From assembly GCA_029287915.1 (NCBI GenBank), contig JARFQE010000100.1, positions 1-46,719 on the forward strand: 46,719 bases of DNA, given 5' to 3'. This document shows, in pieces, positions 19,952 through 39,591 of this stretch. The DNA is from Arenicellales bacterium (GTDB lineage Bacteria > Pseudomonadota > Gammaproteobacteria > BMS3Bbin11). Every line of letters begins with the position of its first letter. The stretch's first letter is position 1. Made by a program: the position numbers and the translations under genes. A model generated the notes under the pieces. That model worked only from the letters and a program-made list of their open reading frames with translations, ran no database searches and was not told the origin of the DNA.

Positions 19952-21376
19952 CTACCCTGATGTTCCACTACGGTGATAGGGATCATCCAGGCGTTCAATA
20001 TCATCCTCTTCCAGGTAAGAACCGGTTTGTACTTCGATAACTTCCAGCACCTCGTCAGTGTGGTTAGCCAGCTGATGAATCATGCCTGCTGGAATATAGG
20101 TGGATTCATTCTCATGCAGAAGCATTTTCTCATCATCGCGAACGATGCTAGCCTGGCCTTTTACCACCACCCAGTGTTCCGCCCTGTGTCTGTGACGTTG
20201 CAATGACAGCACAGCGCCGGGCTTCAGGCTAAGCCGCTTGACCTGATGGTTGGCGCTTTTTTCCAGCACTGTATAGCTGCCCCAGGGTCGAAAAGCGCAA
20301 CGATGTAGACTGGCTTCGCTGCGGTCTTCTTTCTGTAACTGTTTTGCCAGAGCACCAATTTCATGACTTTGCCTGCGATCAGCCACCAGGACTGCATCTG
20401 ATGTCTCGACGATGACTACATCTTTCAGGCCCGATGTCACAAGCAAACGATCATGTGCATAAAGCAAACAATCATTCGTATCCTGCATCATGACATCACC
20501 CTTACTGGCATTACCATACTCATCCTGACCCAACTCTTGATGCAATGCAGACCAGGAACCTACATCATTCCATCCCGCATCAAGGGGTGCCATGACCGCA
20601 TTGTCTGTCTGTTCCATGACAGCATAATCAATAGACATAGCAGGACAGCGGCCGAAAGACTCTTCATCGAAGGCCTGAAAGTCATGGAAATGTTTTTCCC
20701 GGTCTGCCCAGGCCAGCTGACAGCATTGAAGAATCTCAGGTTGCCATCGTTCGAGTTCATCAAGGTAGGTATTAGCCTTGAACAGGAACATTCCGCTGTT
20801 CCAGAAATAATCCCCGGCAGCCACATATTCAGCTGCCAGTTTGCTGTCCGGCTTTTCAACGAAAGCATCAACCGTAAATGCCCCGGTTGACAGTTGTTCA
20901 CCGCAATGAATATAGCCAAAGCCGGTATCCGGCCGCCTTGCTGGTATACCGAAAGTAATCAGCTTGCCATCCCCGGCTAATGGCAACATGGCCTTTACCG
21001 TGTTTCTAAATTCCTCTGCATCCCTGATCACATGATCGGCAGCAAGCACCAGCAGCGTTGCATCGGCTGAGATCTCGAGTGCTGCAAATGCTGCCATGGC
21101 TACCGCTGGTGCAGTATTTCGACCGACAGGTTCAAGCAGAACATTGGCATCCTGCCAGCCTATCTCAGCCAGCTGTTCAGTGATCATAAAACGGTGTTCA
21201 CGATTGCCAATAACAATCAAATGCTCGGCCTTGCATAAACCATCAAGGCGGCGCACAGTTTGTTGCAGCATGGTTTCATTACCCAGTAGATGGTGAAACT
21301 GCTTGGGGTAAAATTCGCGTGACATCGGCCACAGGCGTGTGCCTGACCCTCCTGACATAATGACCGGAATAATCAC
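19952..21376 (-). CDS. manC: Mannose-1-phosphate guanylyltransferase / mannose-6-phosphate isomerase
   Basis: 474 residues, the length of bifunctional type II PMI/GMP enzymes. The N-terminal nucleotidyltransferase has SGGSGTRLWPMSREFYPKQF near residue 8, FVEKPD, and the GDYFWNSGMFLF block, and makes GDP-mannose. The C-terminal cupin (about 355-460) has RPWGSYTVLE, SLQRHRHRAEHWVVVKG with the metal-binding histidines, and ENESTYIPAGMIHQLAN, and isomerises fructose-6-P. The GTG start has GGAG six bases upstream, inside the end of the preceding gene. It is the last gene of the polysaccharide run. No manB or gmd is nearby, so GDP-mannose may feed the glycosyltransferases directly or be used elsewhere. 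Confidence 0.95.
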   Translation of the reverse strand: MIIPVIMSGGSGTRLWPMSREFYPKQFHHLLGNETMLQQTVRRLDGLCKAEHLIVIGNREHRFMITEQLAEIGWQDANVLLEPVGRNTAPAVAMAAFAALEISADATLLVLAADHVIRDAEEFRNTVKAMLPLAGDGKLITFGIPARRPDTGFGYIHCGEQLSTGAFTVDAFVEKPDSKLAAEYVAAGDYFWNSGMFLFKANTYLDELERWQPEILQCCQLAWADREKHFHDFQAFDEESFGRCPAMSIDYAVMEQTDNAVMAPLDAGWNDVGSWSALHQELGQDEYGNASKGDVMMQDTNDCLLYAHDRLLVTSGLKDVVIVETSDAVLVADRRQSHEIGALAKQLQKEDRSEASLHRCAFRPWGSYTVLEKSANHQVKRLSLKPGAVLSLQRHRHRAEHWVVVKGQASIVRDDEKMLLHENESTYIPAGMIHQLANHTDEVLEVIEVQTGSYLEEDDIERLDDPYHRSGTSG

Positions 21377-21377
21377 A

Positions 21378-23279
21378 TTATTCTCCAGCTGTGTAGGTTC
21401 TTATTGTGGTATCTGTATTTTGTCTTTCACCGGTATTCTGTTGCGTCATTTCCGGTACCAGCTTTTTTATTAAAGCCATAATTTCGTCAATGTCAAATTC
21501 ATCAACTGCCTGGCGGAATTTATCCATCGACTCGGCCAGTGTCTGCCAGTCAGTTTTTCGGCTCAATGCCAGCATGATTTTTTCGTGGCTGGTATCAGTG
21601 AGGTTCTCGTCCGTGTGAAACAACTCCTCATGCAGTTTCTCACCCGGCCGCAAGCCGGTAAATTCGATTTTTATATCTTCACCGGGGATCTTACCAGAGA
21701 GGCGTATCATCTGCTCAGCAAGATACAGTATTTTTACTGGCTCCCCCATATCGAGGACAAATATTTCTCCACCACTCCCCATAACAGTGGTCTGCAGTAT
21801 CAGCCGACAGGCTTCTGATATCGTCATGAAATAGCGGGTAATATTCCTGTCAGTGACTGTCACCGGGCCACCACGTTGTATCTGCTTTCTAAATAGAGGC
21901 ACCACGCTGCCAGCAGAGCCAAGTACATTTCCAAAGCGCGTGGTAATAAAACGGGTCGTTGAGCGTTCGTCCAGCGTCTGACATATAATTTCCGCCACCC
22001 TCTTGGTGGCACCCATAATATTACCCGGATTTACAGCCTTGTCGGTCGACACCATAACAAAATCACTGCAGCCGTATTTGTCCGCCAGACGGGCAACATT
22101 CCAGCTGCCAATAATATTATTCCTTACCGCTTCCCTGACCTTGTTTTCCAGCATTGGTACATGTTTGTATGCAGCTGCGTGGAAAACAACATTCGGCTTA
22201 TAGGATCTGAACAAATATTCCAGCCCGGCTTCATCACAGACATCGCCCAGTTCACAGGTCAACTTCAGTTCAGGTCTCGACTGGTGAAGTTCTTTCTCGA
22301 TGGAATAAAGATTGTACTCGCTCTGATCCAGTACAATTAAATGCTGAATACCAACAGAAGTTACCTGCCGACACAACTCGGAGCCTATCGACCCTCCGCC
22401 ACCGGTGACCAGAACTATTTTATCCGACAGGCGTTTTACAATTTCCGTGCGATCCAGCATAACCGGGGCACGGCCAAGTAAATCATCGATGCGCACTTCT
22501 CTGAGCTCGTTGATACTCACTTTACCACTGACCAGTGATTGTAATTTCGGCAGGGTGCGAAACGGCACACCTGACATCTCACAGAGTTCGACTATGCGGC
22601 GCATTTGATCTGAATTTGCACTGGGTAATGCCAGCATAATGAGGTCTGCATCCCACTGACCCGCTACGCTGGCAATGTTTTCAATGTTCGATACTACCCT
22701 GATCCCGTGAATCTCCTGTCCCTGCTTTGCCGGATCATCATCGACAAAGGCTACGGGGGCATAGACCGCAGGACGCATCCGCAACAGGTCCCTTACCAGA
22801 CCTTCCCCCGCTGCGCCCGCTCCAACAACTAGCACCCGCTCTGCAGCTTCCTTACCGAGGCGATGGTCCTTCAGCAGACGATAGCTGAGGCGAGTACCAC
22901 CAAGTAGAAGAATTAGCAGAATAGCATCAATGATGAAAACTGATCTGGGGACATACTCCAGACGCGTAAGGAAGAAAATCACGACTGCAGCAATTGCTGT
23001 TGAAACCACTACAGCACGCACGATACGGCTTAAATCAGGTAATGAAGCAAAACGCCATATTCCACGGTATAGTCCAAAATAGATGAAGATGCTGCCCTGT
23101 ATCAACATTACTAGCGGTAATAAGTGAAGTGCCCTTTCCAGTAGATGGTCAGGATACTCACCGATCTTATAGCGGATCCAGTAAGACAGCATCCAGGCAA
23201 TCGGGATCATGATGACATCATGCGCAAGAGCAGCCCATCGTGTTTTGAGCAGCCTCAGTGATGTACTAATATTAAACAA
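21378..23279 (-). CDS. wbpM: WbpM-like UDP-GlcNAc 4,6-dehydratase (membrane-anchored)
   Basis: 633 residues, near Pseudomonas WbpM (665). The N-terminal 130 residues contain about four membrane spans. A first Rossmann domain has VLVVGAGAAGEGLVRDLL (149-166). The catalytic SDR has TGGGGSIGSEL (294-302 region) and STDKAVNPGNIMGATK (411-426). The active-site tyrosine is replaced by Met422 with Lys426 kept, the MxxxK form known for WbpM and PglF. The product is UDP-2-acetamido-2,6-dideoxy-4-ketohexose, precursor of FucNAc or QuiNAc. A TTG start with GGGG eight bases upstream is the best available, since the next ATG is at codon 23. Confidence 0.92.
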   Translation of the reverse strand: MFNISTSLRLLKTRWAALAHDVIMIPIAWMLSYWIRYKIGEYPDHLLERALHLLPLVMLIQGSIFIYFGLYRGIWRFASLPDLSRIVRAVVVSTAIAAVVIFFLTRLEYVPRSVFIIDAILLILLLGGTRLSYRLLKDHRLGKEAAERVLVVGAGAAGEGLVRDLLRMRPAVYAPVAFVDDDPAKQGQEIHGIRVVSNIENIASVAGQWDADLIMLALPSANSDQMRRIVELCEMSGVPFRTLPKLQSLVSGKVSINELREVRIDDLLGRAPVMLDRTEIVKRLSDKIVLVTGGGGSIGSELCRQVTSVGIQHLIVLDQSEYNLYSIEKELHQSRPELKLTCELGDVCDEAGLEYLFRSYKPNVVFHAAAYKHVPMLENKVREAVRNNIIGSWNVARLADKYGCSDFVMVSTDKAVNPGNIMGATKRVAEIICQTLDERSTTRFITTRFGNVLGSAGSVVPLFRKQIQRGGPVTVTDRNITRYFMTISEACRLILQTTVMGSGGEIFVLDMGEPVKILYLAEQMIRLSGKIPGEDIKIEFTGLRPGEKLHEELFHTDENLTDTSHEKIMLALSRKTDWQTLAESMDKFRQAVDEFDIDEIMALIKKLVPEMTQQNTGERQNTDTTIRTYTAGE

Positions 23280-23299: not shown

Positions 23300-24319
23300 T
23301 TATTTGCTTTTACAACGATTAAATCGCGAGTTTATCAGAAACATGGTTATGGTAAGTATTGCCATTGTCACAATCAGGGCGGTATACGTATCTATTGCAT
23401 CAAAAATTAGCAGACTCGCCAGTAGCGCCAGTATGATGTTCATCATCATCACGGCAAGGCTGACCTGTGCATGGCTAAAGCCTGATTGCACAGCACGTTG
23501 ATAGAAATGCGAGCGATGTGCCTGCCACCATTTCTCTCTTTTGATCATCCTGTGCAGCAGGGTAATACCCGAATCAGCAAGATAGACAGCATACAGGATG
23601 AGGAAAGCAGCAAGTGGCAGGCCTACACCAGCTATACCGATAACAGCGATGATGGCGAAAAAAGCACCCAGTGCAAGGCTGCCGACATCTCCCATAAATA
23701 TCTTTGCCGGAGACCAGTTCCAGCGTAAAAAACCCAGCGCTGCACCGGCTACAGCAATACATATTATGGCGATACTAATGACTCCTGATATTGCAAACCA
23801 GTACGAGGTCGCTGTGCCTAGAATGATTGTTTCAACAGCAGAGATGCCATCAATACCATCCATGAAGTTATATAAATTTGCCATCCACACTATCCACAAT
23901 ACACAGAGAAGAAGAATGGCTATTGCTCCAGTTGTCAACGAAAGCCCGTCTATTTCCGATAACAGCCATGTGCTTGAAAAGGCAGCGATCAGCAACTGGA
24001 TAAGAAACCTGGACGAAGCAGGTAAATCGTGCTTATCATCCTGCCAGCCCAGTACAGCGAATGCCACAGTAGCAAGCAGCAGGCACAGCAGACTCTGAAT
24101 TGGTGCCTGGGGAAGAAACAGCGACACCATCCCGGCAAGCATTAAAACAATCACTATTGCCAGGCCACCACCTCGGGGTGTCGGCACGGTGTGAGAGCTT
24201 CGGACATTTGGAATATCCAGCAGGTTTTTCGCTCGTGCGTACTTGCTGACAGATGCGGTAAGAAACCAGGATAACAGCACGCTAAAAATAAATATTGTCG
24301 GTATTAAACTGTTTGTCAC
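23300..24319 (-). CDS. WbpL/WecA-like undecaprenyl-phosphate sugar-1-phosphate transferase
   Basis: 339 residues with about ten hydrophobic segments and a GTG start. It belongs to the MraY/WecA/WbpL family, which moves a sugar-1-phosphate from a UDP-sugar to undecaprenyl phosphate and so starts lipid-linked glycan assembly. Motifs are [13 protein letters not shown] near the N-terminus, [15 protein letters not shown] (the Asp-Asp pair), [26 protein letters not shown], and the C-terminal [10 protein letters not shown] that influences sugar choice. It stands directly upstream of the wbpM homologue, as wbpL does in Pseudomonas, so FucNAc or QuiNAc-1-P is a likely substrate. WecA-type GlcNAc use cannot be excluded. 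Confidence 0.9.
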
Positions 24320-24325
24320 AACTGT

Positions 24326-27256
24326 CTACCAGCTACTGGCATAGGCAGCCAGCTGTGATTGGTCAGCCTGTACAGGATCATACAACTGCTGATACCAGTA
24401 AACAGTATCGTTGATGCCCTGCTCCATCGAGTAAGGAGGCTGCCAGCCAAGAGTATTGTGTGCATGTGTAGCATTTATAACCAGCGACTGTACAAGCCTG
24501 TCGACTGTAGACCGCTCACCACCGACAGCTGCTATAAGCTGCATAACCTGTACCGAAACAGGAAACAAGTGCGGTGTGATACCCAATCCCTGTGCCAGCA
24601 TTTTGACAAGCACAGGTGTCGAGATAGCTTCACTGTCACTGACCAGGAAGGTCTGGCCAGCAGCGGCGGGATGAACAGCCGACAAAGCTAACATATCCAC
24701 CAGATTTTCCAGATAAATAAAACTGCGCCGGTTGTCAACTGTTGCAAGAGGCAACGGAATACCTTTATCGACCAGCTTTATAAGCCGCAGAAAGTTGGCT
24801 TTAACACCCGGACCGTAAACCAGTGGTGGTCGTACAATAACGACCTCGATGTTTGACGATGATTCGATATCGCGCAGGATACTTTCTGCAGCAAGTTTGC
24901 TTTTTGCATAACTGCCTTCAGGAATGGGCTGGGTTAATTCTGTGACTGATTCATTTTGGTTGCTGGACTCACCATGTACTTTTACGCTACTGATGTAGAT
25001 AAAACGTTTAACCCCGGCACTGGCAGCAGCACTGGCCAGCGTTCTGGTAACATCAACATTTAGTCTTGTACACTGCAGCCTTGCCTGCTCAGACAGGTCT
25101 CCTGATTGTTCGTGAACATAACCGGCTAGATGCAAGACTGCGTCGATACCAGCGAGTAAATTGTTCCAGTCATAAACTTCACATAGATCATCAATCACAA
25201 TCGGAGTGAGCTTGCTGCCCAGGTTATGTAATTGCCTCACGTCACGAAGAACGGCGAACACCTCACAGTCATGGGCAACCAGATATCGACACAAAGAGAA
25301 GCCGATAAAGCCACCGGCACCTGTCACCAGAATTTTCTTGCCTTTTAATGCAGACAGCGCGGACCTTTTTTTTTCAGCTGGCAGCGGTATTAAAGAATTT
25401 TGCTTAAAGTATGGCGTTTCCAGAAACCCCCTGGGTGCATAAGAAAAATCTTTTTTTGCTGGTGAATGATCAAAACAGAGATCCTCCTCCATACGATCTA
25501 CCATCGCCGGAGTGACATGCCGTAAGCCGGGCAACAATGATACCATGCCGGTTATTGATTTAAGCAGTGGTCGGTTAACAACGCACAACCGTTGCTTGCG
25601 TCCCAATAATTTAAATACAAGTTCGACCATTCTGGAGTAACTCAGTGTTTCACCACCACTGAGATTATAATCCTGCTGATAGGTAGCTTTATTCTGCAGA
25701 ACCTTGAGACAGGCATCGGCCAGATCATCGGCGTGCACAGGCTGGCGACAGCCATTACCGTTACCCGCCATAATGAAACACCCAAAACGCCGAATAAAAG
25801 TGGCAATAGAAAAAATATTTTTATCCAGACCACAGCCATAAACCAGGGTCGGCCTGAACAACGTCCATCGTACGCCATAGTTCTCGCATTCTTCAATCAG
25901 CCTGCCTTCAGATTCGGCAAGCCGGCTGGCGAGGTTTCTATCTGCATCATTGCTGGATTGAAGCTTCGTGAAGCGACTGGTAGAACTGAAAAAAATCAAC
26001 CGTCGCACACCCTGATCAGCAATTTCATTAATTTTTGAAGCCAACAACCATACAGGTGCCAGGGAAATCACCGTTATAGTGTCATCTGGCAACTTCAGTT
26101 CATCCTCTGACTCAAGATTCAACTGTGACCATTGCAGTTGATTGATAGTGGAATTTTTTATTTTTTTTCTGCTTGTTGCAGTCACCGTGTAGCCCGCATT
26201 TATCAAACGCGGGATGAGAAAATGCCCAATCTGACTATTTCCACCTAGTACCAGCACACGACCATTCGATGAACTATCACTTGTTTTGAACTGTAGAAAT
26301 GAGGGGTCGATATTGTCTTCAGTGGAGGAAAATAATAATGCTTTTATACGTCTTAGCCATCTGCCCAGTAAGTTCGTAAAAATATGGAAAACATGCTTGA
26401 CTGCCAATGCAATAAATCGGAACCAGACACCGATTGCAACAATGATTGTCAGTGGCAGCGGATAACGATGCAGGAAGAACTTATTATAAAAACGCATCAT
26501 TCCCTTGTGCATATGCCACATCACTCGCAGCGGTCGCTGCTTGCTACTGAAGCCCTGGTAATGCGTCACCTCTATATCTGGTGCAAATAATACTTTGTAG
26601 CCTTTTTGCTGAAAACGCATGCACCAGTCCAGGTCTTCACAATGTAGAAAATACCCTTCGTCCAGTGGGCCAACATCATCCAGCGCCGAACGGCTGACAA
26701 GCATCAGGGAACCCGATATTGCATCAACAGGTGCTGCCGCTTCAGGCAATGGCTCACTGGACATATCAAAGCCCTGTAACCACTCGGCAGATTTTGTGAA
26801 ATGGGATAGGCCAAGAACCCGCACCAGGGTTCGCCACGGGGTCGGCACTCTGCGCCTGCAACCTTTCTGCTCAGTACCATCAGGGTTTAGAACCCGGCAA
26901 CCCAGTATCCCGGTCTGTTCATTATTGCGAAAAGTATGCAGTAAGCGGCTGATTGTATCGGGTTTGATAAAACAGTCTGGATTTAGAAACAGAATAAAGT
27001 TGCCATCAGCCTGCCTGAGAGCAATATTATTCGCAGTTGAAAAACCAACATTGCTACTGTTGCGAATGATAGTTAGCCTCGAATCACTAGCAAACTGTTT
27101 TTCCAACAGACTAATAGAGTGATCTACCGAGGCATTATCCACAACAATGACTTTTACCGGTATATCAGAGGCAAACACCTTGCCAACTGAGCGAACAAGC
27201 AGTTTACCGCCATTGAAATTTACAATGATGACCGATACCAGATCTCTATTGACCAT
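24326..27256 (-). CDS. GT2 glycosyltransferase - SDR - SDR (WbpV-like) triple fusion
   Basis: 976 residues in one uninterrupted frame with an ATG start. Module 1 (about 1-265) is a GT2 of rhamnosyltransferase type: VSVIIVNFNGG, LFLNPDCFIKP, and HCEDLDWCMRFQQKGYKV. A membrane span or re-entrant segment follows (266-295). Module 2 (about 333-610) is an extended SDR with the dinucleotide loop GGNSQIG (338-344), but NxxxR (441-445) stands where YxxxK is expected. Module 3 (about 637-976) is a complete SDR with TGAGGFIG, SSVKVHG and YAKSK (783-787); its RSFIYLENLVDML block resembles WbpV. Module 3 could reduce the WbpM product to UDP-FucNAc or UDP-QuiNAc. It ends six bases before the WbpL-like gene. 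Confidence 0.88.
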   Translation of the reverse strand: MVNRDLVSVIIVNFNGGKLLVRSVGKVFASDIPVKVIVVDNASVDHSISLLEKQFASDSRLTIIRNSSNVGFSTANNIALRQADGNFILFLNPDCFIKPDTISRLLHTFRNNEQTGILGCRVLNPDGTEQKGCRRRVPTPWRTLVRVLGLSHFTKSAEWLQGFDMSSEPLPEAAAPVDAISGSLMLVSRSALDDVGPLDEGYFLHCEDLDWCMRFQQKGYKVLFAPDIEVTHYQGFSSKQRPLRVMWHMHKGMMRFYNKFFLHRYPLPLTIIVAIGVWFRFIALAVKHVFHIFTNLLGRWLRRIKALLFSSTEDNIDPSFLQFKTSDSSSNGRVLVLGGNSQIGHFLIPRLINAGYTVTATSRKKIKNSTINQLQWSQLNLESEDELKLPDDTITVISLAPVWLLASKINEIADQGVRRLIFFSSTSRFTKLQSSNDADRNLASRLAESEGRLIEECENYGVRWTLFRPTLVYGCGLDKNIFSIATFIRRFGCFIMAGNGNGCRQPVHADDLADACLKVLQNKATYQQDYNLSGGETLSYSRMVELVFKLLGRKQRLCVVNRPLLKSITGMVSLLPGLRHVTPAMVDRMEEDLCFDHSPAKKDFSYAPRGFLETPYFKQNSLIPLPAEKKRSALSALKGKKILVTGAGGFIGFSLCRYLVAHDCEVFAVLRDVRQLHNLGSKLTPIVIDDLCEVYDWNNLLAGIDAVLHLAGYVHEQSGDLSEQARLQCTRLNVDVTRTLASAAASAGVKRFIYISSVKVHGESSNQNESVTELTQPIPEGSYAKSKLAAESILRDIESSSNIEVVIVRPPLVYGPGVKANFLRLIKLVDKGIPLPLATVDNRRSFIYLENLVDMLALSAVHPAAAGQTFLVSDSEAISTPVLVKMLAQGLGITPHLFPVSVQVMQLIAAVGGERSTVDRLVQSLVINATHAHNTLGWQPPYSMEQGINDTVYWYQQLYDPVQADQSQLAAYASSW

Positions 27257-27262
27257 TAGAAC

Positions 27263-28258
27263 TTATTCATAACGATTAAGATATGGAGCTAGAATACCAT
27301 GCGCCATACTATTCCTGAGTTCCCCAATATCTACTTTAATTTTTGACTGGACCTGTCTGCGCTGCTGCCATGCACGTCCCAAGCCTTTGATTGCATCAAG
27401 CTTGGAGCGCAGAATAACAGAAGCTTTACCTTGATAGACATATAGTAGAATACTGGCCAGATTGTATAACAGGTGTTGAGGCAGATAGACCCAGAACCAG
27501 GGCGAAGGCATATTCATCACATAAACCCAAACAAGATTACGATGCCCGTGGTATATCTGGAAATCACTATTAGCACCAACCAGTGCTGCGCCTTCATGAA
27601 CCACAACAGCATCAGCAATATAAAAACAGCGATAGCCAAGTAGTTTCAGTCTGAAGCCCAGGTCCATATCTTCCATATAGCAGAAAAATTCTTCATTCAT
27701 ACCGCCTGCTTCCATGTAAACCTGGCGGCGAAAAAGTGCCGCGGCACCTGATGGGGCAAATATTTCATCCCCCTGTTTTCGTCGTACAGCAGGCTTTCCG
27801 TAGTCGCGTCGCCAACTGGCTCCTGAAACATGGTATACATCACCAGTACCATCCAGGGTATTCTCAGCAGTTGCCAGCATGCGACACCCGAAGAACTGAA
27901 AATCCGGGTGTGTATAAGCCCCATGCAAAAATTTCTCCAGCCAGTCCTGTTCTGCATAAGCATCCGGATTAAGTAGCACAACCCATTCCATATCGTCTAG
28001 CAGGCTAATTGCGCGATTATTTGCGGCAGCGAAACCAATATTCTCATTCAGCGCCAGAATTTCTATTTGTGGAAAGTGGGCATGTAATTGATCAGAAGAG
28101 AAATTGTCACTGTTATTGTCGACAAGCAATACCCGATCAGGCTTGCGTGTCTGCCGGCTTAATGCTGTTAGACACCGTTGCAGACATGCACCACCATTAT
28201 AATTAACAATGACGACTGCGACGGTCTGCGAGGAACTCGTATTGTTCAATTCTTTCAC
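27263..28258 (-). CDS. GT2 family glycosyltransferase (rhamnosyltransferase-like)
   Basis: 331 residues with a GTG start; no ATG is available before the catalytic domain. The GT-A fold begins VAVVIVNYNGGACLQRCL. The nucleotide-sugar site includes LLVDNNSDN and LLNPDAYAEQDW, and the acceptor region has CYMEDMDLGFRLKLLG. The C-terminal quarter has a hydrophobic stretch (PSPWFWVYLPQHLLYNLASILLYV split here) that probably touches the inner membrane. The best family match from motifs is the WbbL-like dTDP-rhamnose transferases, but sugar specificity cannot be read from sequence. It lies six bases upstream of the triple fusion, whose GT2 module is related to it. Confidence 0.9.
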   Translation of the reverse strand: MKELNNTSSSQTVAVVIVNYNGGACLQRCLTALSRQTRKPDRVLLVDNNSDNFSSDQLHAHFPQIEILALNENIGFAAANNRAISLLDDMEWVVLLNPDAYAEQDWLEKFLHGAYTHPDFQFFGCRMLATAENTLDGTGDVYHVSGASWRRDYGKPAVRRKQGDEIFAPSGAAALFRRQVYMEAGGMNEEFFCYMEDMDLGFRLKLLGYRCFYIADAVVVHEGAALVGANSDFQIYHGHRNLVWVYVMNMPSPWFWVYLPQHLLYNLASILLYVYQGKASVILRSKLDAIKGLGRAWQQRRQVQSKIKVDIGELRNSMAHGILAPYLNRYE

Positions 28259-28287: not shown

Positions 28288-29226
28288 CTACAATAATAAC
28301 TTGCGTACGACATAGACAGGTTTATTCTGTGCCTCATGATAAGTACGCGTCATCAATTCGCCGAGAAGGCCAAAGGTAATGAACTGCAGGCCGATGAACA
28401 TCAATAGTACAGCAAGCAGCAGCAGTGGCCTGTCACCCATTGGTATAGAGAAGAAAAATTTCTGTACCAGCATCACGAAAGCTATGATAAACCCTGTCAC
28501 GCCGCTGGCCAGGCCAAGGCCACCGAAAAAATGAATGGGCCTGGCTGAATACTGCAACAGGAACTTAACCGTGATCAGGTCTAGGATCACGCGGAAGGTA
28601 CGTGAAATACCATATTTACTTGAACCGGCAACACGGGCACGATGGTTGACCTTAACCTCGGCTATACGCACACCCATCCAGCTGGCAATTGCCGGTATAA
28701 ATCGATGCATTTCACCATACAGACGCACATTCTCAACAACATCCTTGTGGAATGCTTTCAGACTACAGCCATAGTCATGCAGTTTGACACCAGTGATTTT
28801 CGAGATCAGTAAATTTGCTATTTTTGATGGCAGCTTTCGAGACAGCCAGGCATCCTGTCGGTCAAAGCGCCAGCCACTGACAAGATCATAACCCTCATCA
28901 ATCTTATCCAGTAGCATCGGTATATCATGCGGGTCATTTTGACGGTCAGAATCCATCGTTATGATGGTATCACCGCTAGCATGTTCAAATCCGGCAGCTA
29001 ATCCAGCCGTCTGGCCAAAATTTCGACGGAACTGGATGATTTTTATGTTAGGGTTTACCTCACGAAGAGAGCAAAGAATATCGAAACTTCGATCGGTGCT
29101 ACCGTCATCGATGTAGATTATTTCATAATCCACATCGATGTTTTCTATGACCCCGATAATCTCGGTGTTCATATCAATGAGGTTTTCTTCTTCATTGAGC
29201 ACTGGAAGGATAACTGAAATTTTCAA
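28288..29226 (-). CDS. Polyprenyl-phosphate glycosyltransferase (DPM1/ArnC-like GT2)
   Basis: 312 residues. The TTG start has AGGA eight bases upstream, and the next ATG would lie within the catalytic fold. The GT2 domain shows ISVILPVLNEEENL, IYIDDGSTDRS, QFRRNFGQTAGLAAG and TMDSDRQNDPHDIP, the typical DPM1/GtrB/ArnC pattern. Two C-terminal membrane helices lie at about 235-260 and 268-295. Such enzymes load a sugar onto undecaprenyl phosphate for use on the periplasmic side. In this locus it could supply a sugar for modification of the exported chain or lipid A; no GtrA flippase or GtrC-like acceptor enzyme is next to it. It sits downstream of the 308-bp gap. Confidence 0.88.
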   Translation of the reverse strand: MKISVILPVLNEEENLIDMNTEIIGVIENIDVDYEIIYIDDGSTDRSFDILCSLREVNPNIKIIQFRRNFGQTAGLAAGFEHASGDTIITMDSDRQNDPHDIPMLLDKIDEGYDLVSGWRFDRQDAWLSRKLPSKIANLLISKITGVKLHDYGCSLKAFHKDVVENVRLYGEMHRFIPAIASWMGVRIAEVKVNHRARVAGSSKYGISRTFRVILDLITVKFLLQYSARPIHFFGGLGLASGVTGFIIAFVMLVQKFFFSIPMGDRPLLLLAVLLMFIGLQFITFGLLGELMTRTYHEAQNKPVYVVRKLLL

Positions 29227-30446: not shown

Positions 30447-33017
30447 CTAGCCGCTATCTTTTAGAAGTTTGCAATACAGGCTATCGAGCTCATCGACCTG
30501 CATGGATACAGTATTGATCTTTCTTTCCCCATTTGTTACAGGAGGATATTGATACTTTGACATGTTATTATTTAATTCTGAAAACAGCTCATGAAGGCGA
30601 TTGTCATCGCCGATTGAGAATATATGTCCGTCCTTACCTTCAGTGACATCTTCAGCTAGCCCCCCCGCATCACTTACTATCACCCACTTACCCATCAGAA
30701 TAGCTTCGCGCGAAACAAGTCCAAAGCTTTCAGGCCACATAGAAGGGGCGATGACTACATCAATGGTGTTATAAAATTCATCCATCCTGTCCATTTCTAT
30801 CGGAGGGATCAGTTCAACCTCGTTTTCACCCCAGCGCTCAGTAATATTCTCTCCGACATTAAAATCGACTACCTTGAGCTGCAGGTTTTCAAAGTGGCTG
30901 CGTGAAAACACCTGCTTTAGGAAATAGTAACCTTTGTGCATACATACACCACCAAGATAGGCCAGCCTGAGTGTCGATAAGTCACTGCCAGCAGGCTGCA
31001 TGCCAGCCGTCATGGACACGCCGTTCTTGTTTATCAGAATTTCTTTAAAACCGTTTTTCCTATATAGACTGGCCTGGTACTCTGATACTGCCAGAAGACT
31101 TGAAGCGGACCTTAATGCCCCTGCCAGGTACTCGGCACGTTCAAGTGTGCTAACAATATCCTGGCTGGTATTCGCTGCAATCAACGGGTTGCGTTGTAGC
31201 TCATCAACTGGCTCACCGTTGTCGTCGATCAGGAACTGATGATCGGATATCCACCAGGCATCATGAGCAGTGACTATATACGGTATATTTTCCGCAATGG
31301 CTGCCCGCAACGGTGATGCCGTCAGTCTCTGCATGCTATGAAAATGAATAAGGTCAGGCTTTCTGAAGCGTAGATATTCGCTAAAAATTCTTTCGACATC
31401 ATCGTCCCTGTATTTCCACTCCAGGTCCGGGCTGGCGGAAACACTCAAAGCTGTAACATTCACTCCATCATATTCATACTCACGTAGTTGATTCGGCAGC
31501 GGGTTTTCAATATCACAGGTAAATACCATAACATCATAACGATCCGAAAAACGTTGTTGAATATTGTCTATAATATTTTTCATTACCACAGTCGCTCCAC
31601 CAATCGAAGAAGGTGGATAAACCGTGTTGACATAAAGCAGTTTCTTTTTAGTTTCTGTTGCAAGCGAAGCGATACCCCTGTCAACGGCATGATCTATATA
31701 GCGGTCGACTATGTCGCTAAATTTCCGACTCATGGCCTCTACTCCATACAGTCGCATAACCTTTTTATGCGCAGTCTCGCCGACTGACAGCCGATACTCT
31801 GTATCATTGACTAATTTTGTAAGAGCTTCATACCACTGTTGCTGGTTATCGGCCAGGCAGCCATCGATGCCATCTTCAATGATTTCCCGATAGGTTCTGG
31901 TGGCAGATACGACGCAGGGAATTTTGAAAATAGCTGATTCAATCCATTTAATCTCACTCTTGCAATCAGCAAAGAATCCCAGCTCTAGAGGCGCTATACA
32001 GAGCTTTGCCTGTGACAAAACAGTCAGGTAGGAATCAAAAGGCATGATAGGCAGGATGCGAATACGCGCTGAAAATACTTTCAATTCTGCAGGGATCGTC
32101 AGGTGACCAACTATAATGAGCCTGACATCTTCATTTTCTTTCAGGATTTTGACCAAAACCGGGGCAATAGTGGCGAAATCTTCATCATGAGTTCTGGTTC
32201 CACTTCCATAAAAAATATCGACAAAGTCATCGCTTCTTGGAACAGGTGGTGTATCAACGTGTGCAAGCAAGCCTTTGTCCAGGGTGTTGGGAAAGACGGT
32301 ACATATTCCTGCACCGACTATACGTGCCATCTCTTGCGCAAGCACTGGTGTCGAGGCCAGTGCATAGCTACAGGTTTCAATTGCTTTTCGATAAATTGAT
32401 GCGCCCCGCAGCATCTCTTTTTGCTCACGTTCGAGCAACTGCCCTGTGGCTCCTTTGAATTTCTCCGCCAGCCGCTGTTCATCAAATATCAGGTCATCAA
32501 GATCATAGAGCATTATCTTGTTTAGACCTGCCGCATATTGCATGATATTTATGACATCTGGAAAGCCAGGTACACGGTAAAAAAGAATTACATCATAGAA
32601 ATGAACCTTCTCCTTCACCGCGGCAAGTTCGCGCCATGACAACCATTCATGGCGCCAATCAAGTTCCTGTAGAAGCTCCATTTTTTGCTGCACACGATAG
32701 CGGAAACATTGAGGTATGCTTTCCTCAACTACAAGTAGCACTGATGGGTGCCTGCTGATTGGCCGCGCAGACATTGCGGTTTGCTGTGGAGCAATATAAG
32801 TGCTGAGATTACGCTGTTGCCGGTTTGCGAACAAACCCAGCCTCTCCAGCATTCTGAGCAGGACTTTACTCAGACGTATTAGCAAGCTGATGGAAAGAAA
32901 AAAAACATTGACGATGAACATCAAAAGCGGCTTTTTATGAATCGTCGTCAACACAGTGTCCACTCGCCTGCGATTCATTCGTGTCAGACTCTTCAAGCGT
33001 TCAATGATGGTTGCCAT
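30447..33017 (-). CDS. Tandem GT4-type glycosyltransferase, two-domain protein
   Basis: 856 residues with an ATG start. A hydrophobic segment at about 30-50 probably anchors it to the inner membrane. Domain 1 (about 92-440) is GT-B-like, with YDLDDLIFDE, FYGSGTRTHDEDF and CKSEIKWIESAIFKIPCVVS. Domain 2 (about 458-856) starts LLYVNTVYPPSSIGGATVVM and has HFHSMQRL, VTAHDAWWISDH, the hinge AYLGGVCMHKGYYFL and PSMWPESFGLVSREAI with the EX7E-type glutamates. Two active sites in one chain suggest successive addition of two sugars, or one catalytic and one binding domain. It follows the double-GT2 gene by 18 bases. Confidence 0.88.
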   Translation of the reverse strand: MATIIERLKSLTRMNRRRVDTVLTTIHKKPLLMFIVNVFFLSISLLIRLSKVLLRMLERLGLFANRQQRNLSTYIAPQQTAMSARPISRHPSVLLVVEESIPQCFRYRVQQKMELLQELDWRHEWLSWRELAAVKEKVHFYDVILFYRVPGFPDVINIMQYAAGLNKIMLYDLDDLIFDEQRLAEKFKGATGQLLEREQKEMLRGASIYRKAIETCSYALASTPVLAQEMARIVGAGICTVFPNTLDKGLLAHVDTPPVPRSDDFVDIFYGSGTRTHDEDFATIAPVLVKILKENEDVRLIIVGHLTIPAELKVFSARIRILPIMPFDSYLTVLSQAKLCIAPLELGFFADCKSEIKWIESAIFKIPCVVSATRTYREIIEDGIDGCLADNQQQWYEALTKLVNDTEYRLSVGETAHKKVMRLYGVEAMSRKFSDIVDRYIDHAVDRGIASLATETKKKLLYVNTVYPPSSIGGATVVMKNIIDNIQQRFSDRYDVMVFTCDIENPLPNQLREYEYDGVNVTALSVSASPDLEWKYRDDDVERIFSEYLRFRKPDLIHFHSMQRLTASPLRAAIAENIPYIVTAHDAWWISDHQFLIDDNGEPVDELQRNPLIAANTSQDIVSTLERAEYLAGALRSASSLLAVSEYQASLYRKNGFKEILINKNGVSMTAGMQPAGSDLSTLRLAYLGGVCMHKGYYFLKQVFSRSHFENLQLKVVDFNVGENITERWGENEVELIPPIEMDRMDEFYNTIDVVIAPSMWPESFGLVSREAILMGKWVIVSDAGGLAEDVTEGKDGHIFSIGDDNRLHELFSELNNNMSKYQYPPVTNGERKINTVSMQVDELDSLYCKLLKDSG

Positions 33018-33035: not shown

Positions 33036-35426
33036 TTAACTATACTTGACCATTGCCAAACTGTAGTTCTCATCGTCATGAGTCAGGTTTGGATTGTAAT
33101 AGGGATCACCCTGTTCAAATATGTCTGCATGGCGTTCTCTTAACCTGGCCTTCTCCCCACTGAAACGCTGCTGCTTTTCTTCTGTATCCTCATAGCCCCT
33201 AGATATCGACTCATAATGATAAAGCTCGGCATAGGGTGTAAAAACATTCAGTAGCCCCTTTTCACGCAGGCGCAAGCAAAAATCTACATCGTTATAGGCA
33301 ATCTTGAAATTAACCTCATCGAAACCATTGATTGAATCATATTTCTGCCGACTAATCATGAAACAGGCGCCGGTAACTGCAGAGACATTATGAATCTTAT
33401 GAAGAAGATTGAAATAGCCTGGATAATTTATCGGCAGCAGTTTATGTGCATGACCGGCATAACCTCCCAGGCCAATGATAATCCCCGCATGTTGAATAGT
33501 GTTATTGGGATATAGCAGTTTGGCACCGACAGCACCTACCTCCTGACGCTGTGCATGCTCCAGCATTGATTCTATCCAGTCCCAGCTAATGACCTCAATA
33601 TCATTATTTAATATGATCAGGTACTCGCCTTTTGATTGCGTAACGCCAAAATTTACAACACGTGAAAAATTAAATTCTTCGTTAAATTCAATACAACGGA
33701 AACGGGGTGACTTCTGTTCCAGTTGATGGATCAAAGTGAACGTTTCGCTCGAGCGACTGTTATTAGAAATCGCTATAATCTCATAGTTGTCCCATGTCGA
33801 ATGATCAAGTATTGAGTTGACACAGGTTGCTAGCAGATCTGGCTTGTCGCGAAAGGGAATAACAATGCTTACCAATGGAGTATCTTTTATTTTTCGCTTA
33901 ACTCGAAAAAAGAAAGGTAATTTTTCATCCAGTACTTGAGCTTCTATGCCGCGCCGGTCCAGGGTATCCTGCAGGGCCATATGAGCATTCATCAATGCAC
34001 CCGGTTTTGCATCCGCGGTGAAGCTGGTTGAGGTTTCGCTCTTACGCCAGTGGTAGAGCACCTTCTGAATGTGGTAAATCTGGTCTGTCTTTTCCGTCAG
34101 ACGCAGTAGTAGTTCATAATCCTGTGCTCCGTCATAGCGACTATCAAGTAAACCGACCTCTTGCACCAGTTTTTTCCTGACCACAACAAAGTGTGTGATG
34201 TAATTATGTGACAATAAAAGGTCGGGCGAGAAATCGGGCTTGAAATGGGGATCAATATACTCACCATCAAGATCAATGAAATCTTCATCAGAATAGATCA
34301 ACTCCGCACCGCTATCATTGATTGCCTTGGCCGCTTCAAACAACGCATCAGGCGTCAATTCGTCATCGTTGTCCATAAACGCCAGGTATTCTCCACTGGC
34401 AAAGCGAATTGCTTCATTGGTCGCGCCGGAAATATTGCGATTATTATCCAGATAGTGGATTCTAATCTGCGGATGGCGGATATTCTTTAGATAAGCAATC
34501 GTCTCGTCTCTACTGGAGGCGTCATCTACAATGCAAAGTTCCCAGTTTTCATGGAGCTGAGTCTTGACACTTTCTATCGCGGTTTCTAGCCACGCCGGGT
34601 CAACATTATAGACTGGCATTACCAGGCTAATGAGTGGTTTTTTTTCCAATGATAACAGCTCTGAACTGACACGTGTGCGATCTTCTTCAGTAAACGTGTA
34701 TTCATATTCACGACTATTCCTTGGGCTATCTTTAACTGTACGGTTTTCTTGCGCATGCATCCAGCCAATAAGCTTTTCACGCAGCAATGGTATCCAGCCA
34801 AACAATCGATGATAAATCTTGCGATATCCTTCTATCAGTCGCCATGCTTTTGATCGCTTGATCTCCTCAATTTCTTCCCTGTATTGCTTGTGATTAGCAA
34901 GCTCATCTTCCAGCTCTCGTATGCGACTGATATATGTATTCTCTTCCCTGATAAAGCCATCCTGCGCTATTGCATAGTCAAGAGAATACGGCGCACTAAG
35001 CTCAATGCACAATTGCAGCCTGCTATCGGCTTCAACATCAGGCAAAGAAAGTGTCAGAGACGGGTCAGTTCCTGTTACTACAAACACCTCGCCAAGTGCT
35101 GAATGACGGTAGCGAAGATCAATGAACTGGCATGCCTCAAGAATTTCATCCGGATCATCGTAATGGAGCAATTCCTCAGCTTGCACACTTGCCTGATCAA
35201 CGAGGGTAATACGGTACAGATGAATAAATCCATCGCGCCACAATCCTGTATGCGAATGAAATGATAATGTAATTTCCTTGCTGGCTGGAACAATATCTTT
35301 AAAGCAGTGGCGTTGCCGTTCCACAATCGGGTCAATAGCAACTAACTGATCAGCAACATCAGTCTGCTGCAGCACAAGCGTTAATGAACTTTCGTCTTCA
35401 TTCATTACAGTTACATCAAGTATCAA
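33036..35426 (-). CDS. Tandem GT2 glycosyltransferase, two-domain protein
   Basis: Up to 796 residues. The N-terminal 150 residues are beta-rich and unassigned, and a short coiled coil follows (about 163-200). GT2 domain 1 (about 264-480) has LISLVMPVYNVDPAWL, CIVDDASSRDET, FMDNDDELTPDAL and AQDYELLLRL. GT2 domain 2 (about 517-740) has VSIVIPFRDKPDLL, IILNNDIEVIS and AYNDVDFCLRLREKG. It resembles the multi-domain GT2 enzymes that build O-chains in ABC-exported systems. The start is either TTG at 35426, overlapping the wzt stop (TTGA), or ATG at 35405; neither has a clear ribosome site. Its place next to wzt suggests it extends the chain before export. Confidence 0.88.
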   Translation of the reverse strand: MILDVTVMNEDESSLTLVLQQTDVADQLVAIDPIVERQRHCFKDIVPASKEITLSFHSHTGLWRDGFIHLYRITLVDQASVQAEELLHYDDPDEILEACQFIDLRYRHSALGEVFVVTGTDPSLTLSLPDVEADSRLQLCIELSAPYSLDYAIAQDGFIREENTYISRIRELEDELANHKQYREEIEEIKRSKAWRLIEGYRKIYHRLFGWIPLLREKLIGWMHAQENRTVKDSPRNSREYEYTFTEEDRTRVSSELLSLEKKPLISLVMPVYNVDPAWLETAIESVKTQLHENWELCIVDDASSRDETIAYLKNIRHPQIRIHYLDNNRNISGATNEAIRFASGEYLAFMDNDDELTPDALFEAAKAINDSGAELIYSDEDFIDLDGEYIDPHFKPDFSPDLLLSHNYITHFVVVRKKLVQEVGLLDSRYDGAQDYELLLRLTEKTDQIYHIQKVLYHWRKSETSTSFTADAKPGALMNAHMALQDTLDRRGIEAQVLDEKLPFFFRVKRKIKDTPLVSIVIPFRDKPDLLATCVNSILDHSTWDNYEIIAISNNSRSSETFTLIHQLEQKSPRFRCIEFNEEFNFSRVVNFGVTQSKGEYLIILNNDIEVISWDWIESMLEHAQRQEVGAVGAKLLYPNNTIQHAGIIIGLGGYAGHAHKLLPINYPGYFNLLHKIHNVSAVTGACFMISRQKYDSINGFDEVNFKIAYNDVDFCLRLREKGLLNVFTPYAELYHYESISRGYEDTEEKQQRFSGEKARLRERHADIFEQGDPYYNPNLTHDDENYSLAMVKYS

Positions 35427-36745
35427 TGAACACCGTCAATCGACATCTTCATATTTAATGCAGATATACCAAAATCACTCTTGTCCGCCTTAACCTGCAG
35501 GTGAATAAGATCATAGCGCCGGTCAACAGCCAGGTTGTCCTTTTTCTCATCATCATCTGCCAGTCCAAGCGAAATAAAATAATCACCGCCGATCAGATTA
35601 ATCATAAAGCTGTATCGGATAAGTAATTCACTACCTGCCAGCGCGGCAGGGACATCAAGTTTTCGCTCTCTTGTGTTAGCACCGTAGACGACTATGCCAT
35701 CCGATGTCTTCAGGGTGAGTCCGAGGATAGGAGCGGTAACATCTTTTGAGAAAACTATTCTAAGTAGAAGGTCTATGCGATCACCAGTTTTACACATAGC
35801 AGGAGCCGGTCCACCATTAACCAGCAGCACATAGTCCTGTATCTGCCCACGCTGATCTCCCCAGCGGTACTCTGCAGAATTATAGTATGGTCGCAGGCTA
35901 CAACCATCAATAAAGCGGTCCGTAATCAAACCGTTTTCATCATAGCTGATTGCATCAGTATTTATTGATTTTGTTTTTACCTGTCCTTCATCATTATTAA
36001 ATAACAAATTCAGATATTCATTGACTACATGCCCAGGATCACCGATCGCATGCATCGACCCTTTTTCCAGTAATACAGCACGATCGCAGTGTCTCACAAT
36101 CAAATCACTGGAGTGTGTGACAAACAGCGTTGTTGTGCCCCGTTCTTTCAATTCCCGAAGCTTCCTGAAGCATTTGTTCTGGAATCGTACGTCGCCCACT
36201 GACAGGGCTTCATCGACAACAAGGATATCCGGGTCGAGGTGGATCGCAACGGCAAAAGCAAGGCGCACATACATACCGCTCGAATAGGTTTTCACAGGCT
36301 GGTCGATAAAATCGCCGATACCAGAAAACTCCAGGATATCGTTAAACCTGCTTGCCATTTCGTTGCGACTGAAACCGACAATTGAACCATTAAGATAAGC
36401 GTTTTCTCGACCACTAAAATTTGGATTGAAACCGGCACCAAGCTCAAGCAGGGCTGATAAGCGTCCATTCACCTCAACAGTGCCGGCTGTGGGATACAGG
36501 GTACCGCTAATGATCTGCAGCAATGTTGACTTGCCCGAACCATTGCGACCGATAATGCCAACAGTTTCTCCACGGCAAATTTCCAGATCGAGTGGTTGTA
36601 GCGCCTGTATTTGTCGGAAGCGGGTACCGGACTCCCGAATCCCCGATCGATGCATTATCGATTCCAGTACACGATCAATAGGGCGATTGTATACACGATA
36701 GTTCTTGCACAGTTTCTCTACGCGAATGACCGGTTCAGAGGACAT
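35423..36745 (-). CDS. wzt: Polysaccharide ABC transporter, ATP-binding protein with C-terminal carbohydrate domain
   Basis: 440 residues from the ATG at 36745, which has AGAGGA seven bases upstream; the longer frame to 36796 lacks this and would overlap wzm widely. The ATPase domain (about 1-250) has Walker A GRNGSGKS (66-73), signature SSGM with YSSGMYVRLAFA, Walker B ILVVDE (174-179) and the TLFVTHSS switch. The C-terminal part (about 280-440) fits a Wzt carbohydrate-binding domain, which in E. coli O8/O9a recognises the finished chain end. This implies an O-polysaccharide exported as a complete chain across the inner membrane. It overlaps wzm by 11 bases. Confidence 0.93.
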   Translation of the reverse strand: MSSEPVIRVEKLCKNYRVYNRPIDRVLESIMHRSGIRESGTRFRQIQALQPLDLEICRGETVGIIGRNGSGKSTLLQIISGTLYPTAGTVEVNGRLSALLELGAGFNPNFSGRENAYLNGSIVGFSRNEMASRFNDILEFSGIGDFIDQPVKTYSSGMYVRLAFAVAIHLDPDILVVDEALSVGDVRFQNKCFRKLRELKERGTTTLFVTHSSDLIVRHCDRAVLLEKGSMHAIGDPGHVVNEYLNLLFNNDEGQVKTKSINTDAISYDENGLITDRFIDGCSLRPYYNSAEYRWGDQRGQIQDYVLLVNGGPAPAMCKTGDRIDLLLRIVFSKDVTAPILGLTLKTSDGIVVYGANTRERKLDVPAALAGSELLIRYSFMINLIGGDYFISLGLADDDEKKDNLAVDRRYDLIHLQVKADKSDFGISALNMKMSIDGVH

Positions 36746-37559
36746 CGGCAAATCCTCTGCGGCTTTTCTGGAACCACACGAAACCGATGATGGCAATGAT
36801 CAAAGATACCACGCTGTACAATAACAGCAGCTTCAAATCTGGTGCATTACCCCACAGCAATATCTCTCTGCTCTGCTGCATGATCAATGTCAATGGATTG
36901 AGATAGATAACCCCCTGCAGCCCTTCTGGTAAAGCCGATATTGGATAGAATACCGGGCTCAGAAATAACAGTGCGGTTGTTAAAACACCCATCAGCTGCT
37001 GGATATCTGAAAGAAAGACACCCAGCGCAGAAAACAACCACAGACAACCAACCAGAAAGATGATGTATGGAATGAAAACGACCGGCAGCCACAATACAGT
37101 TATCGGTATACTGCCGTTTATGAACAGATTAAAGACTAGCAGAATCAGGAAACTCATCAGCGCATGGAAGAATGCTGCATAGATAGTCACCCATGGGAGT
37201 ATCTCGATCGGAAACACTACCTTTTTTACGTAATTCACATTACTGGTAATAAGCGTTGGGGCGCGGTTAATGCATTCTGCGAACATTCCATGCACGATCA
37301 AACCACAGAATAAAGTCAACGCAAAACCACCATCCCCGAGGTTCATCTCACCCCAGCGTGCTTTGAAAACGTAACCAAAGATAAAGGTATAGATGATCAA
37401 CATCAGTAGAGGGTTCAGCAGGGTCCAGAAAAAACCCATCACTGATCCTCGATAACGACTGGAAACCTCGCGTTTCGCCAGTTGCCGGACTAATGATTGA
37501 TGCTTAATCAGGGAATTTAGTATACCCGAAGGATTGAGACTGTCATTTATGCCATCCAT
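36735..37559 (-). CDS. wzm: Polysaccharide ABC transporter, permease
   Basis: 274 residues from the ATG at 37559, with GGGG about ten bases upstream; a TTG two codons earlier is the alternative. It is an ABC-2 type permease with six membrane spans. The N-terminal cytoplasmic part LAKREVSSRYRGSVMGFFWTLLNPLL is the typical entry into span 1 (coupling to Wzt). GIIYLNPLTLIMQQSREILLWG-like sequence (LNPLTLIMQQSREILLWGN) near the C-terminus is conserved in Wzm/TagG/KpsM-type permeases. Together with Wzt it would flip the undecaprenyl-linked polysaccharide into the periplasm. It lies about 50 bases downstream of rmlA. Confidence 0.94.
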   Translation of the reverse strand: MDGINDSLNPSGILNSLIKHQSLVRQLAKREVSSRYRGSVMGFFWTLLNPLLMLIIYTFIFGYVFKARWGEMNLGDGGFALTLFCGLIVHGMFAECINRAPTLITSNVNYVKKVVFPIEILPWVTIYAAFFHALMSFLILLVFNLFINGSIPITVLWLPVVFIPYIIFLVGCLWLFSALGVFLSDIQQLMGVLTTALLFLSPVFYPISALPEGLQGVIYLNPLTLIMQQSREILLWGNAPDLKLLLLYSVVSLIIAIIGFVWFQKSRRGFADVL

Positions 37560-37611
37560 AAACAAATTACCCCAGGCTCCCTCTGCTCAGCAGGGTACAT
37601 AAAATCAGGTA

Positions 37612-38484
37612 TCATAATCCTTCTTCTGCAACCAGTTTCAGGTATCGGCCATAGGCATTTTTCGACATTACCTGGGCAAGTTCCAGAAGCTGTCCTTTGT
37701 TGATATATCCTTTGCGAAAGGCGATTTCTTCCGGACAGGATACTTTCAGACCCTGCCTTTTTTCAAGGGTCTCGATGAATGTTGCTGCCTGCAACAGGGA
37801 ATCGTTGGTGCCGGTATCCAGCCAGGCACTGCCGCGCCCCATCAACTCAACAGACAGCTTTCCATCTTCGAGATAACATTTGTTGACATCGGTGATTTCC
37901 AGTTCTCCGCGCGCTGATGGCTTGATGTTTTCTGCATAACTGATGACTTTATTGTCATAAAAATACAAACCTGTCACGGCGTAACGGGAACGGGGTTGTT
38001 GAGGCTTTTCTTCCAGGCTTAACACATTGCCCTGCTTGTCAAACTCCACCACGCCGTAGCGTTCCGGGTCATGCACCGGGTAGGCGAATACTGTGGAGCC
38101 CTCTGTCAATGATGCCGCCCGCGTCAGCATGGTTGACATATCATGACCATAAAAAATATTATCGCCGAGCACCAGTGCTACTGAAGAATCGTCGATAAAT
38201 TTCTTACCAATTAGAAAGGCCTGGGCCAGGCCACCGGGTTCGTCCTGGACAGCATATTCCAGTTCAAGCCCCCAGCTATTCCCATCACCAAGTAGTTCTT
38301 CGAATCGCGGTGTATCCTGGGGAGTAGAAATAATGAGTATCTGGCGTATCCCTGCCAGCATCAGTGTCGACAGAGGATAGTAGATCATTGGTTTATCATA
38401 GACCGGCAACAACTGCTTGGAAACCACCGTTGTCACCGGATAGAGACGCGTGCCGGAACCCCCTGCGAGGATAATACCCTTCAT
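37612..38484 (-). CDS. rmlA: Glucose-1-phosphate thymidylyltransferase
   Basis: 290 residues from the ATG at 38484, the normal RmlA length and N-terminus ([16 protein letters not shown]). A 20-residue upstream extension exists but runs into rmlB and is not family-like. The enzyme makes dTDP-glucose, the first step of dTDP-rhamnose and related sugars. Motifs are [46 protein letters not shown] and [11 protein letters not shown]. It lies four bases after rmlB, so the two are cotranscribed. rmlC and rmlD are not in the window. Confidence 0.96.
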
Positions 38485-38488
38485 AACA

Positions 38489-39550: not shown

Positions 39551-39591
39551 CGTGTTTGTATCCCTTGTCTGTTTTCCGATCGGGCGATGCG

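Follow-up and report, generated by a model that had tools for sequence, protein, structure and literature searches.

The window analyzed here is the whole 46,719-nucleotide contig JARFQE010000100.1, one of the 139 contigs of a 2.78-Mb Arenicellales bacterium genome (GCA_029287915.1). It carries on its minus strand a gene (24,326–27,256) in which a family 2 glycosyltransferase (GT2) is joined to two short-chain dehydrogenase/reductase (SDR) modules. Open reading frame analysis gave 976 uninterrupted residues. Pfam placed a GT2 domain at residues 8–238 and three Epimerase-family stretches, of which that at residues 642–867 is complete; in NCBIfam, no fusion module reached the cut-off of any model. 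The gene and its parts are as follows.

24,326–27,256, minus strand: fusion gene, GT2::SDR2 (atypical)::SDR3 (WbpV-like), 976 residues in a single open frame
26,477–27,256, minus strand: module 1, residues 1–260, WbbL/rhamnosyltransferase-like GT2 with NPD (92–94) and HCEDLDW (205–211) motifs (PF00535, 3e-23)
26,399–26,455, minus strand: membrane-type hydrophobic segment, residues 268–286, at the C terminus of the GT2 module (hydrophobicity)
26,261–26,356, minus strand: linker 1, residues 301–332, variable in sequence and near constant in length
25,418–26,260, minus strand: module 2, residues 333–613, atypical SDR of the SDR2 family (alignments, profile, AlphaFold2 [AF2] and Foldseek)
25,343–25,417, minus strand: linker 2, residues 614–638, 20–48% identity
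24,392–25,342, minus strand: module 3, residues 639–955, complete extended SDR, WbpV-like, with TGAGGFIG and Y783xxxK787 (Pfam, tree)
24,329–24,391, minus strand: C-terminal tail, residues 956–976, ending in SQLAAYASSW, 81–90% identity in the window family

Searches for relatives covered approximately 750 different genomes of 97,973. The fusion was intact in seven of the eight genomes sampled from the order (59–100% identity, 976–985 residues), the eighth, which is 60% complete, giving no match; six relatives assembled independently thus keep the frame at 976–985 residues. In another family, genome G373 encodes a 985-residue fusion with 49% identity over residues 3–964, in the same gene order as the window (DPM, GT2b, fusion, WbpL, WbpM, ManC), and its GT2 module is the sister of the window family's GT2 module (SH-aLRT 98). 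A missed stop codon or frameshift, conceivable because the basis is assembled DNA only, can be set aside for practical purposes, since seven other genomes, assembled independently and with identities down to 49%, keep this frame intact. The single 976-residue frame of the original prediction, which lies on the minus strand, is therefore real, and the joins proposed there (residues 300–335 and 611–637) coincide with the two variable linkers.

All three modules are under purifying selection. Against the nearest genome (G006), which is the least saturated comparison, the others being more or less saturated in synonymous substitutions, dN/dS was 0.13 for GT2, 0.16 for SDR2, and 0.08 for SDR3, with 0.58 for linker 2. 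Linker 1 identity was 19–72%, versus 57–88% in the GT2 and SDR2 modules; across relatives both linkers drift in sequence and keep their length. The C-terminal tail (DPVQ....SQLAAYASSW) is 81–90% conserved over two genera, exceeding module 3 itself, and is present neither in free-standing relatives nor in the G373 fusion; it is possibly a docking peptide.

The genes flanking the fusion in this conserved order are the following.

28,288–29,226, minus strand: polyprenyl-phosphate glycosyltransferase-like GT2, DPM (domain searches; syntenic)
27,263–28,258, minus strand: second GT2, GT2b, directly upstream of the fusion (Pfam; syntenic in L090–L094 and L204)
23,300–24,319, minus strand: WbpL/WecA-like polytopic phosphoglycosyl transferase, the initiating enzyme (PF00953, 6e-37)
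21,378–23,279, minus strand: WbpM-like membrane UDP-N-acetylhexosamine (UDP-HexNAc) 4,6-dehydratase (PF02719, 7e-118, and PF13727)
19,952–21,376, minus strand: ManC-like mannose-1-phosphate guanylyltransferase/mannose-6-phosphate isomerase (syntenic)

The predicted position directly upstream of WbpL-like and WbpM-like genes held, with the PF00953 gene starting 6 bp downstream of the fusion and the PF02719 gene next. The first of these is of the polytopic GT4/MraY type, as expected for WbpL, and the second combines an N-terminal CoA_binding_3 part with PF02719 in a single chain, as in WbpM-type dehydratases.

Module 3 has both hallmarks of an extended SDR (TGxxGxxG and YxxxK), as TGAGGFIG and the Y783–K787 pair invariant in A1 and A3. 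In the tree it falls inside a 22-row clade (UFBoot/SH-aLRT 100/97) together with free-standing SDRs encoded just before wbpL and wbpM, apart from the GalE, RmlB, and HpnA types; the placement outside a WbpV-like clade that would have contradicted the original prediction was thus not observed. The clade includes two Pseudomonas aeruginosa proteins whose loci end wbpL, wbpM, ComEA, aminotransferase, uvrB, although the references in this tree come from plasmid-borne P. aeruginosa O-antigen loci, rather than being the assayed O6 WbpV or WreQ. SDR3–WbpL–WbpM is the usual order for free-standing SDR3 (L177, L179–L182, L187). By its clade, intact Tyr–Lys pair, and gene position, module 3 is inferred to be a UDP-4-keto-6-deoxy-HexNAc 4-reductase of the WbpV/WreQ type. 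It shares these three features with the wbpV–wbpL–wbpM end of the P. aeruginosa O-specific antigen locus and with WbpV-type 4-reductases including Rhizobium etli WreQ. However, the P. aeruginosa protein in the WbpV position is 39–40% identical and has its own gene, in line with the earlier statement that these functions are separate in Pseudomonas, whereas the window SDR3 is fused behind GT2 and SDR2.

Module 1 exhibits the features of a GT-A fold GT2, with a PF00535 match (3e-23) and invariant N92-P93-D94 and E207-D208-L209-D210 (EDxD). Its match to the curated rhamnosyltransferase subfamily TIGR01556 (2e-15) scored 56.8 bits where the cut-off is 200.55, so that "rhamnosyl" is a guess rather than a membership. 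The donor is probably dTDP-L-rhamnose, given rmlA and rmlB in the cluster and rmlC and rmlD elsewhere in the genome. Residues 268–286 have the highest hydrophobicity of any 19-residue stretch in the protein (Kyte–Doolittle mean 2.16), and a corresponding segment is present in free-standing GT2 relatives.

Module 2 belongs to a family (SDR2) that forms a separate clade (100/100) and was detected in 33 of 369 sampled gammaproteobacterial genomes, 29 of them outside the window's order. It passed no NCBIfam model. YxxxK, the catalytic pair of canonical SDRs, is missing in every aligned member, including all free-standing ones: Leu446 stands at the position of the catalytic Lys and is invariant in 24 SDR2 sequences, and there is no Tyr at the Tyr place. 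S425, S427, K431, S434, E450, and R504 are invariant, as is R363 after beta-2, which suggests an NADP type; the window protein has Ser for the middle Gly of the Rossmann motif. Modeled alone in AF2 (nine alignment rows), module 2 gave a predicted local distance difference test score (pLDDT) of 87 with the predicted fold intact, and Foldseek matched the model to SDRs (E 1e-15), including the nucleotide-binding Rossmann half. The top matches were NDUFA9 and SimC7, among many extended SDRs. By profile, the closest solved relative is NDUFA9 (7ar7_P, 4.6e-19), mainly through the C-terminal half, followed by others including SimC7; in these two respects, profile similarity and loss of the catalytic pair, module 2 is like the atypical SDR NDUFA9. 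Both proteins resemble module 2 in having an NADP-type SDR fold that lacks the catalytic Tyr, but they share only ∼20% identity with it, act in unrelated pathways, and are not tied to a glycosyltransferase. Relatives of module 2 at 33–39% identity also occur on four IMG/VR contigs (L225–L228).

A decaying copy of WbpV was considered for module 2 and rejected on the separate clade, the family-wide loss of YxxxK, and the purifying selection; from these comparisons, module 2 is a conserved atypical SDR. The assignment of the three parts in the original prediction (GT2, degenerate-type SDR, and WbpV-like SDR) agrees with Pfam and the tree. "Degenerate" is correct for module 2 insofar as YxxxK is lost, but this does not reflect decay, the loss being fixed throughout the family and the predicted fold of module 2 being intact. 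The original prediction did not recognize SDR2 as a separate family linked to GT2, nor did it note the recurrence of related fusions.

The tie between SDR2 and GT2 was evident outside the window's order, where SDR2 occurred with a module-1-type GT2 in 26 of 29 genomes (2.7 expected; P ∼1e-29 before correction for kinship). Of 29 unfused pairs, 28 had −1 to 16 bp between the GT2 stop and the beginning of the Rossmann fold in SDR2, such that the genes overlap or touch; the overlap is 8 bp on an annotated P. aeruginosa plasmid. Fusions of related parts were found in several arrangements. G718 (L218 6364–9109) encodes SDR3::GT2 in reverse order (627 residues), followed by an overlapping free SDR2 gene; wbjB/C/D-like and rmlC/rmlD-like genes lie in the surroundings. 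GT2::SDR2 fusions are present in G425 and G709, and G052 and G244 join GT2 to an SDR of a third, separate clade. In G330 (L077 3033–5360), a GT2::SDR2 chain ends in an SDR3-like remnant (21 bits, versus a maximum of 1.5 in 500 shuffles) lacking the Rossmann half and Tyr–Lys; it is a natural case of module 3 lost and module 2 kept. Such repeated joining points strongly to the reductases and this GT2 being functionally linked. A GT2::GT2 fusion of 621 residues (L170 5124–6989), with its second half in the module 1 family, was also seen downstream of an ABC transporter gene.

Among known systems, the P. aeruginosa plasmid NZ_CP083368.1 (L189 8986–13827) has the same order of GT2 (49%), SDR2 (41%), WbpL, and WbpM beside an ABC transporter. 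Its GT2 and SDR2 are, however, separate overlapping genes, and unlike the window fusion it has no WbpV-like SDR. On this and related P. aeruginosa plasmids, the ABC-transporter polysaccharide locus differs in type from the usual wbpV–wbpL–wbpM end. A Deinococcus protein annotated as a hybrid nucleoside-diphosphate sugar epimerase/sugar transferase (L190) joins a WbpV-like SDR (42%) to a polysaccharide initiation enzyme, but its partner is a C-terminal bacterial sugar transferase of the monotopic type and it has two modules only, with no GT2. Bifunctional monotopic phosphoglycosyl transferases (Bi-PGTs), in which a functional domain is fused to the initiation-step enzyme (PMC10942596), share with the window fusion the principle of a domain joined to an initiation-step enzyme. 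The window fusion is itself not a Bi-PGT, as Pfam found only GT2 and SDR domains and no phosphoglycosyl transferase domain. A literature search of limited scope found no published description of a GT2–SDR fusion or of the triple architecture. Each catalytic part is thus of a known kind and the fusing of initiation enzymes to other domains has precedent, while the arrangement is new; the most open point of novelty is the uncharacterized module 2 family.

The reading we favor, with about an even chance of being correct, is that the fusion is a single membrane-tethered enzyme which finishes the lipid-carrier-linked first sugar of the O-antigen primer and then adds the second. By analogy with their families, WbpM would produce UDP-4-keto-6-deoxy-HexNAc and WbpL would transfer the sugar phosphate to undecaprenyl phosphate. 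Module 3 would reduce the C4 ketone to give N-acetylquinovosamine (QuiNAc) or N-acetylfucosamine (FucNAc), the most likely substrate being the lipid-linked intermediate, in keeping with what is reported for WreQ; alternatively, the UDP-sugar would be reduced ahead of WbpL. Module 1, membrane-held through its hydrophobic C-terminal segment, would add the second sugar, probably L-rhamnose, and the same segment would keep both SDR modules at the membrane. Module 2 would serve as an NADP(H)-type SDR partner of the GT2 that lacks the canonical pair, either in Tyr-independent sugar reduction or in a structural or cofactor-sensing role. R. etli WreQ, which is of the WbpV type, is reported to complete QuiNAc only after attachment of the 4-keto sugar to the carrier lipid (Li & Noel 2017, title, cited in PMC11320575), and wreQ mutants carry the 4-keto sugar in their lipopolysaccharide (LPS; PMC4514872). 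If the same order applies here, the reductase step falls between WbpL and the GT2, and two successive steps on a single lipid-linked intermediate are united in the fusion, which would explain why the GT2, and not WbpL, is the fused partner.

Several points weigh against this reading. The fusion, its conservation, and its partner relationships are observations, but every reaction assigned to them is an extrapolation. Fusion and co-occurrence indicate a functional link, not channeling, and the full-chain AlphaFold model (five rows; pLDDT 47) gives no inter-domain path. The LPS of wreQ mutants implies that the next transferase accepts the unreduced sugar, so that reduction before extension is not strictly needed, and the remnant in G330 implies that module 3 is dispensable at least there.

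Of the alternatives, the one that survives best, although we consider it clearly less probable than the favored reading, is that neighboring overlapping genes merged without mechanistic consequence, securing equal enzyme amounts but no hand-over of an intermediate. With 28 of 29 free-standing GT2–SDR2 gene pairs already overlapping or nearly so (−1 to 16 bp), little change would be needed to fuse them; separate genes suffice in most relatives, and the linkers are unconserved in sequence. However, the fusion is kept in two families, and related fusions in other orders or with other SDRs arose in other lineages, which may be more than neutral joining predicts.

Two alternatives concern module 2 and appear similarly doubtful. 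In the first, S425, S427, and K431 would stand in for Tyr–Lys in a second, Tyr-independent ketoreductase equivalent in function to WbpV; the two SDRs would then be redundant or yield two different sugars. SDR2 occupies the WbpV position in the GT2–SDR2–WbpL–WbpM loci L075, L080, L083, and L189, all of which lack SDR3, and G330 retains SDR2 with only a remnant of module 3. SDR2 and SDR3 tend toward mutual exclusion, occurring together in one genome versus 5.3 expected (P = 0.018), but this test ignores kinship. The second-best match by fold, SimC7, has ketoreductase activity despite having no Tyr (PMC5039031); its mechanism, however, requires a phenol in the substrate, which sugars do not have, and SDR2 with GT2 is also found at loci with no WbpM or WbpL nearby. 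In the second, module 2 would be a non-catalytic, NADPH-holding structural or sensing part that positions the GT2 at the membrane. This would be reminiscent of NDUFA9, the 39-kDa subunit of complex I, its nearest relative by profile and fold, which binds NADPH and sits on the membrane above the entry of its isoprenoid substrate, quinone (PMC8762328), and it is consistent with the invariant Leu in place of the catalytic Lys. Conversely, the six invariant polar residues from S425 to R504 suggest a working site, and the similarity to NDUFA9 lies mainly in the C-terminal half.

The original prediction had also offered channeling of the WbpM product to the initiating transferase, read here as passage of UDP-QuiNAc or UDP-FucNAc to WbpL, which we now regard as unlikely. 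The fusion gene does lie directly before wbpL and wbpM, WbpV has been described as producing UDP-QuiNAc that is then used by WbpL (PMC4773840), and the Deinococcus protein joins a WbpV-like SDR to a sugar transferase. However, WbpL and WbpM are both outside the fusion, whose partner is a GT2 acting after initiation, and, going by the title of Li & Noel 2017, the R. etli reductase is reported to work on the sugar once it is lipid-linked. Because of this reported action on the lipid-linked sugar, finishing the first sugar and adding the second is preferred over channeling to WbpL. The more general idea put forward with it, that first-sugar synthesis is coupled to second-sugar addition, is supported.

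The wider cluster is of the ABC-transporter type of O-antigen cluster, as it encodes Wzm and a Wzt with a Wzt_C domain.

35,423–36,796, minus strand: Wzt ABC ATPase with Wzt_C domain (PF14524, PF00005)
36,735–37,565, minus strand: Wzm ABC-2 permease (PF01061)

Two further large multi-domain glycosyltransferases are encoded at 30,447–33,017 (GT4 type with two matching stretches) and 33,036–35,426 (two GT2 domains). rmlA and rmlB lie inside the cluster (37,612–39,595), with hldD- and hldE-like heptose genes (39,592–41,549) between rmlB and ugd, and rmlC and rmlD are on another contig (L106) beside a thiG-like gene.

More tentatively than for the fusion as a whole, SDR2 may bind NADP(H) and be an obligate, so far unrecognized partner of a WbbL-like O-antigen glycosyltransferase, i.e., a Tyr-less SDR acting on or gating the polyprenyl-diphosphate-linked first sugar. 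If so, reduction, checking, and extension of the lipid-linked primer would all fall to the triple fusion, which would be a complete single-chain enzyme. Should the favored reading hold, the fusion would offer a naturally occurring single-chain system in which to ask at what stage the 4-keto first sugar is reduced, as the UDP-sugar or on the carrier lipid. The finding draws attention to an uncharacterized family of Tyr-less SDRs whose members lie next to an O-antigen glycosyltransferase or are fused with it, in ∼8% of the gammaproteobacterial genomes sampled as well as on plasmids of P. aeruginosa.

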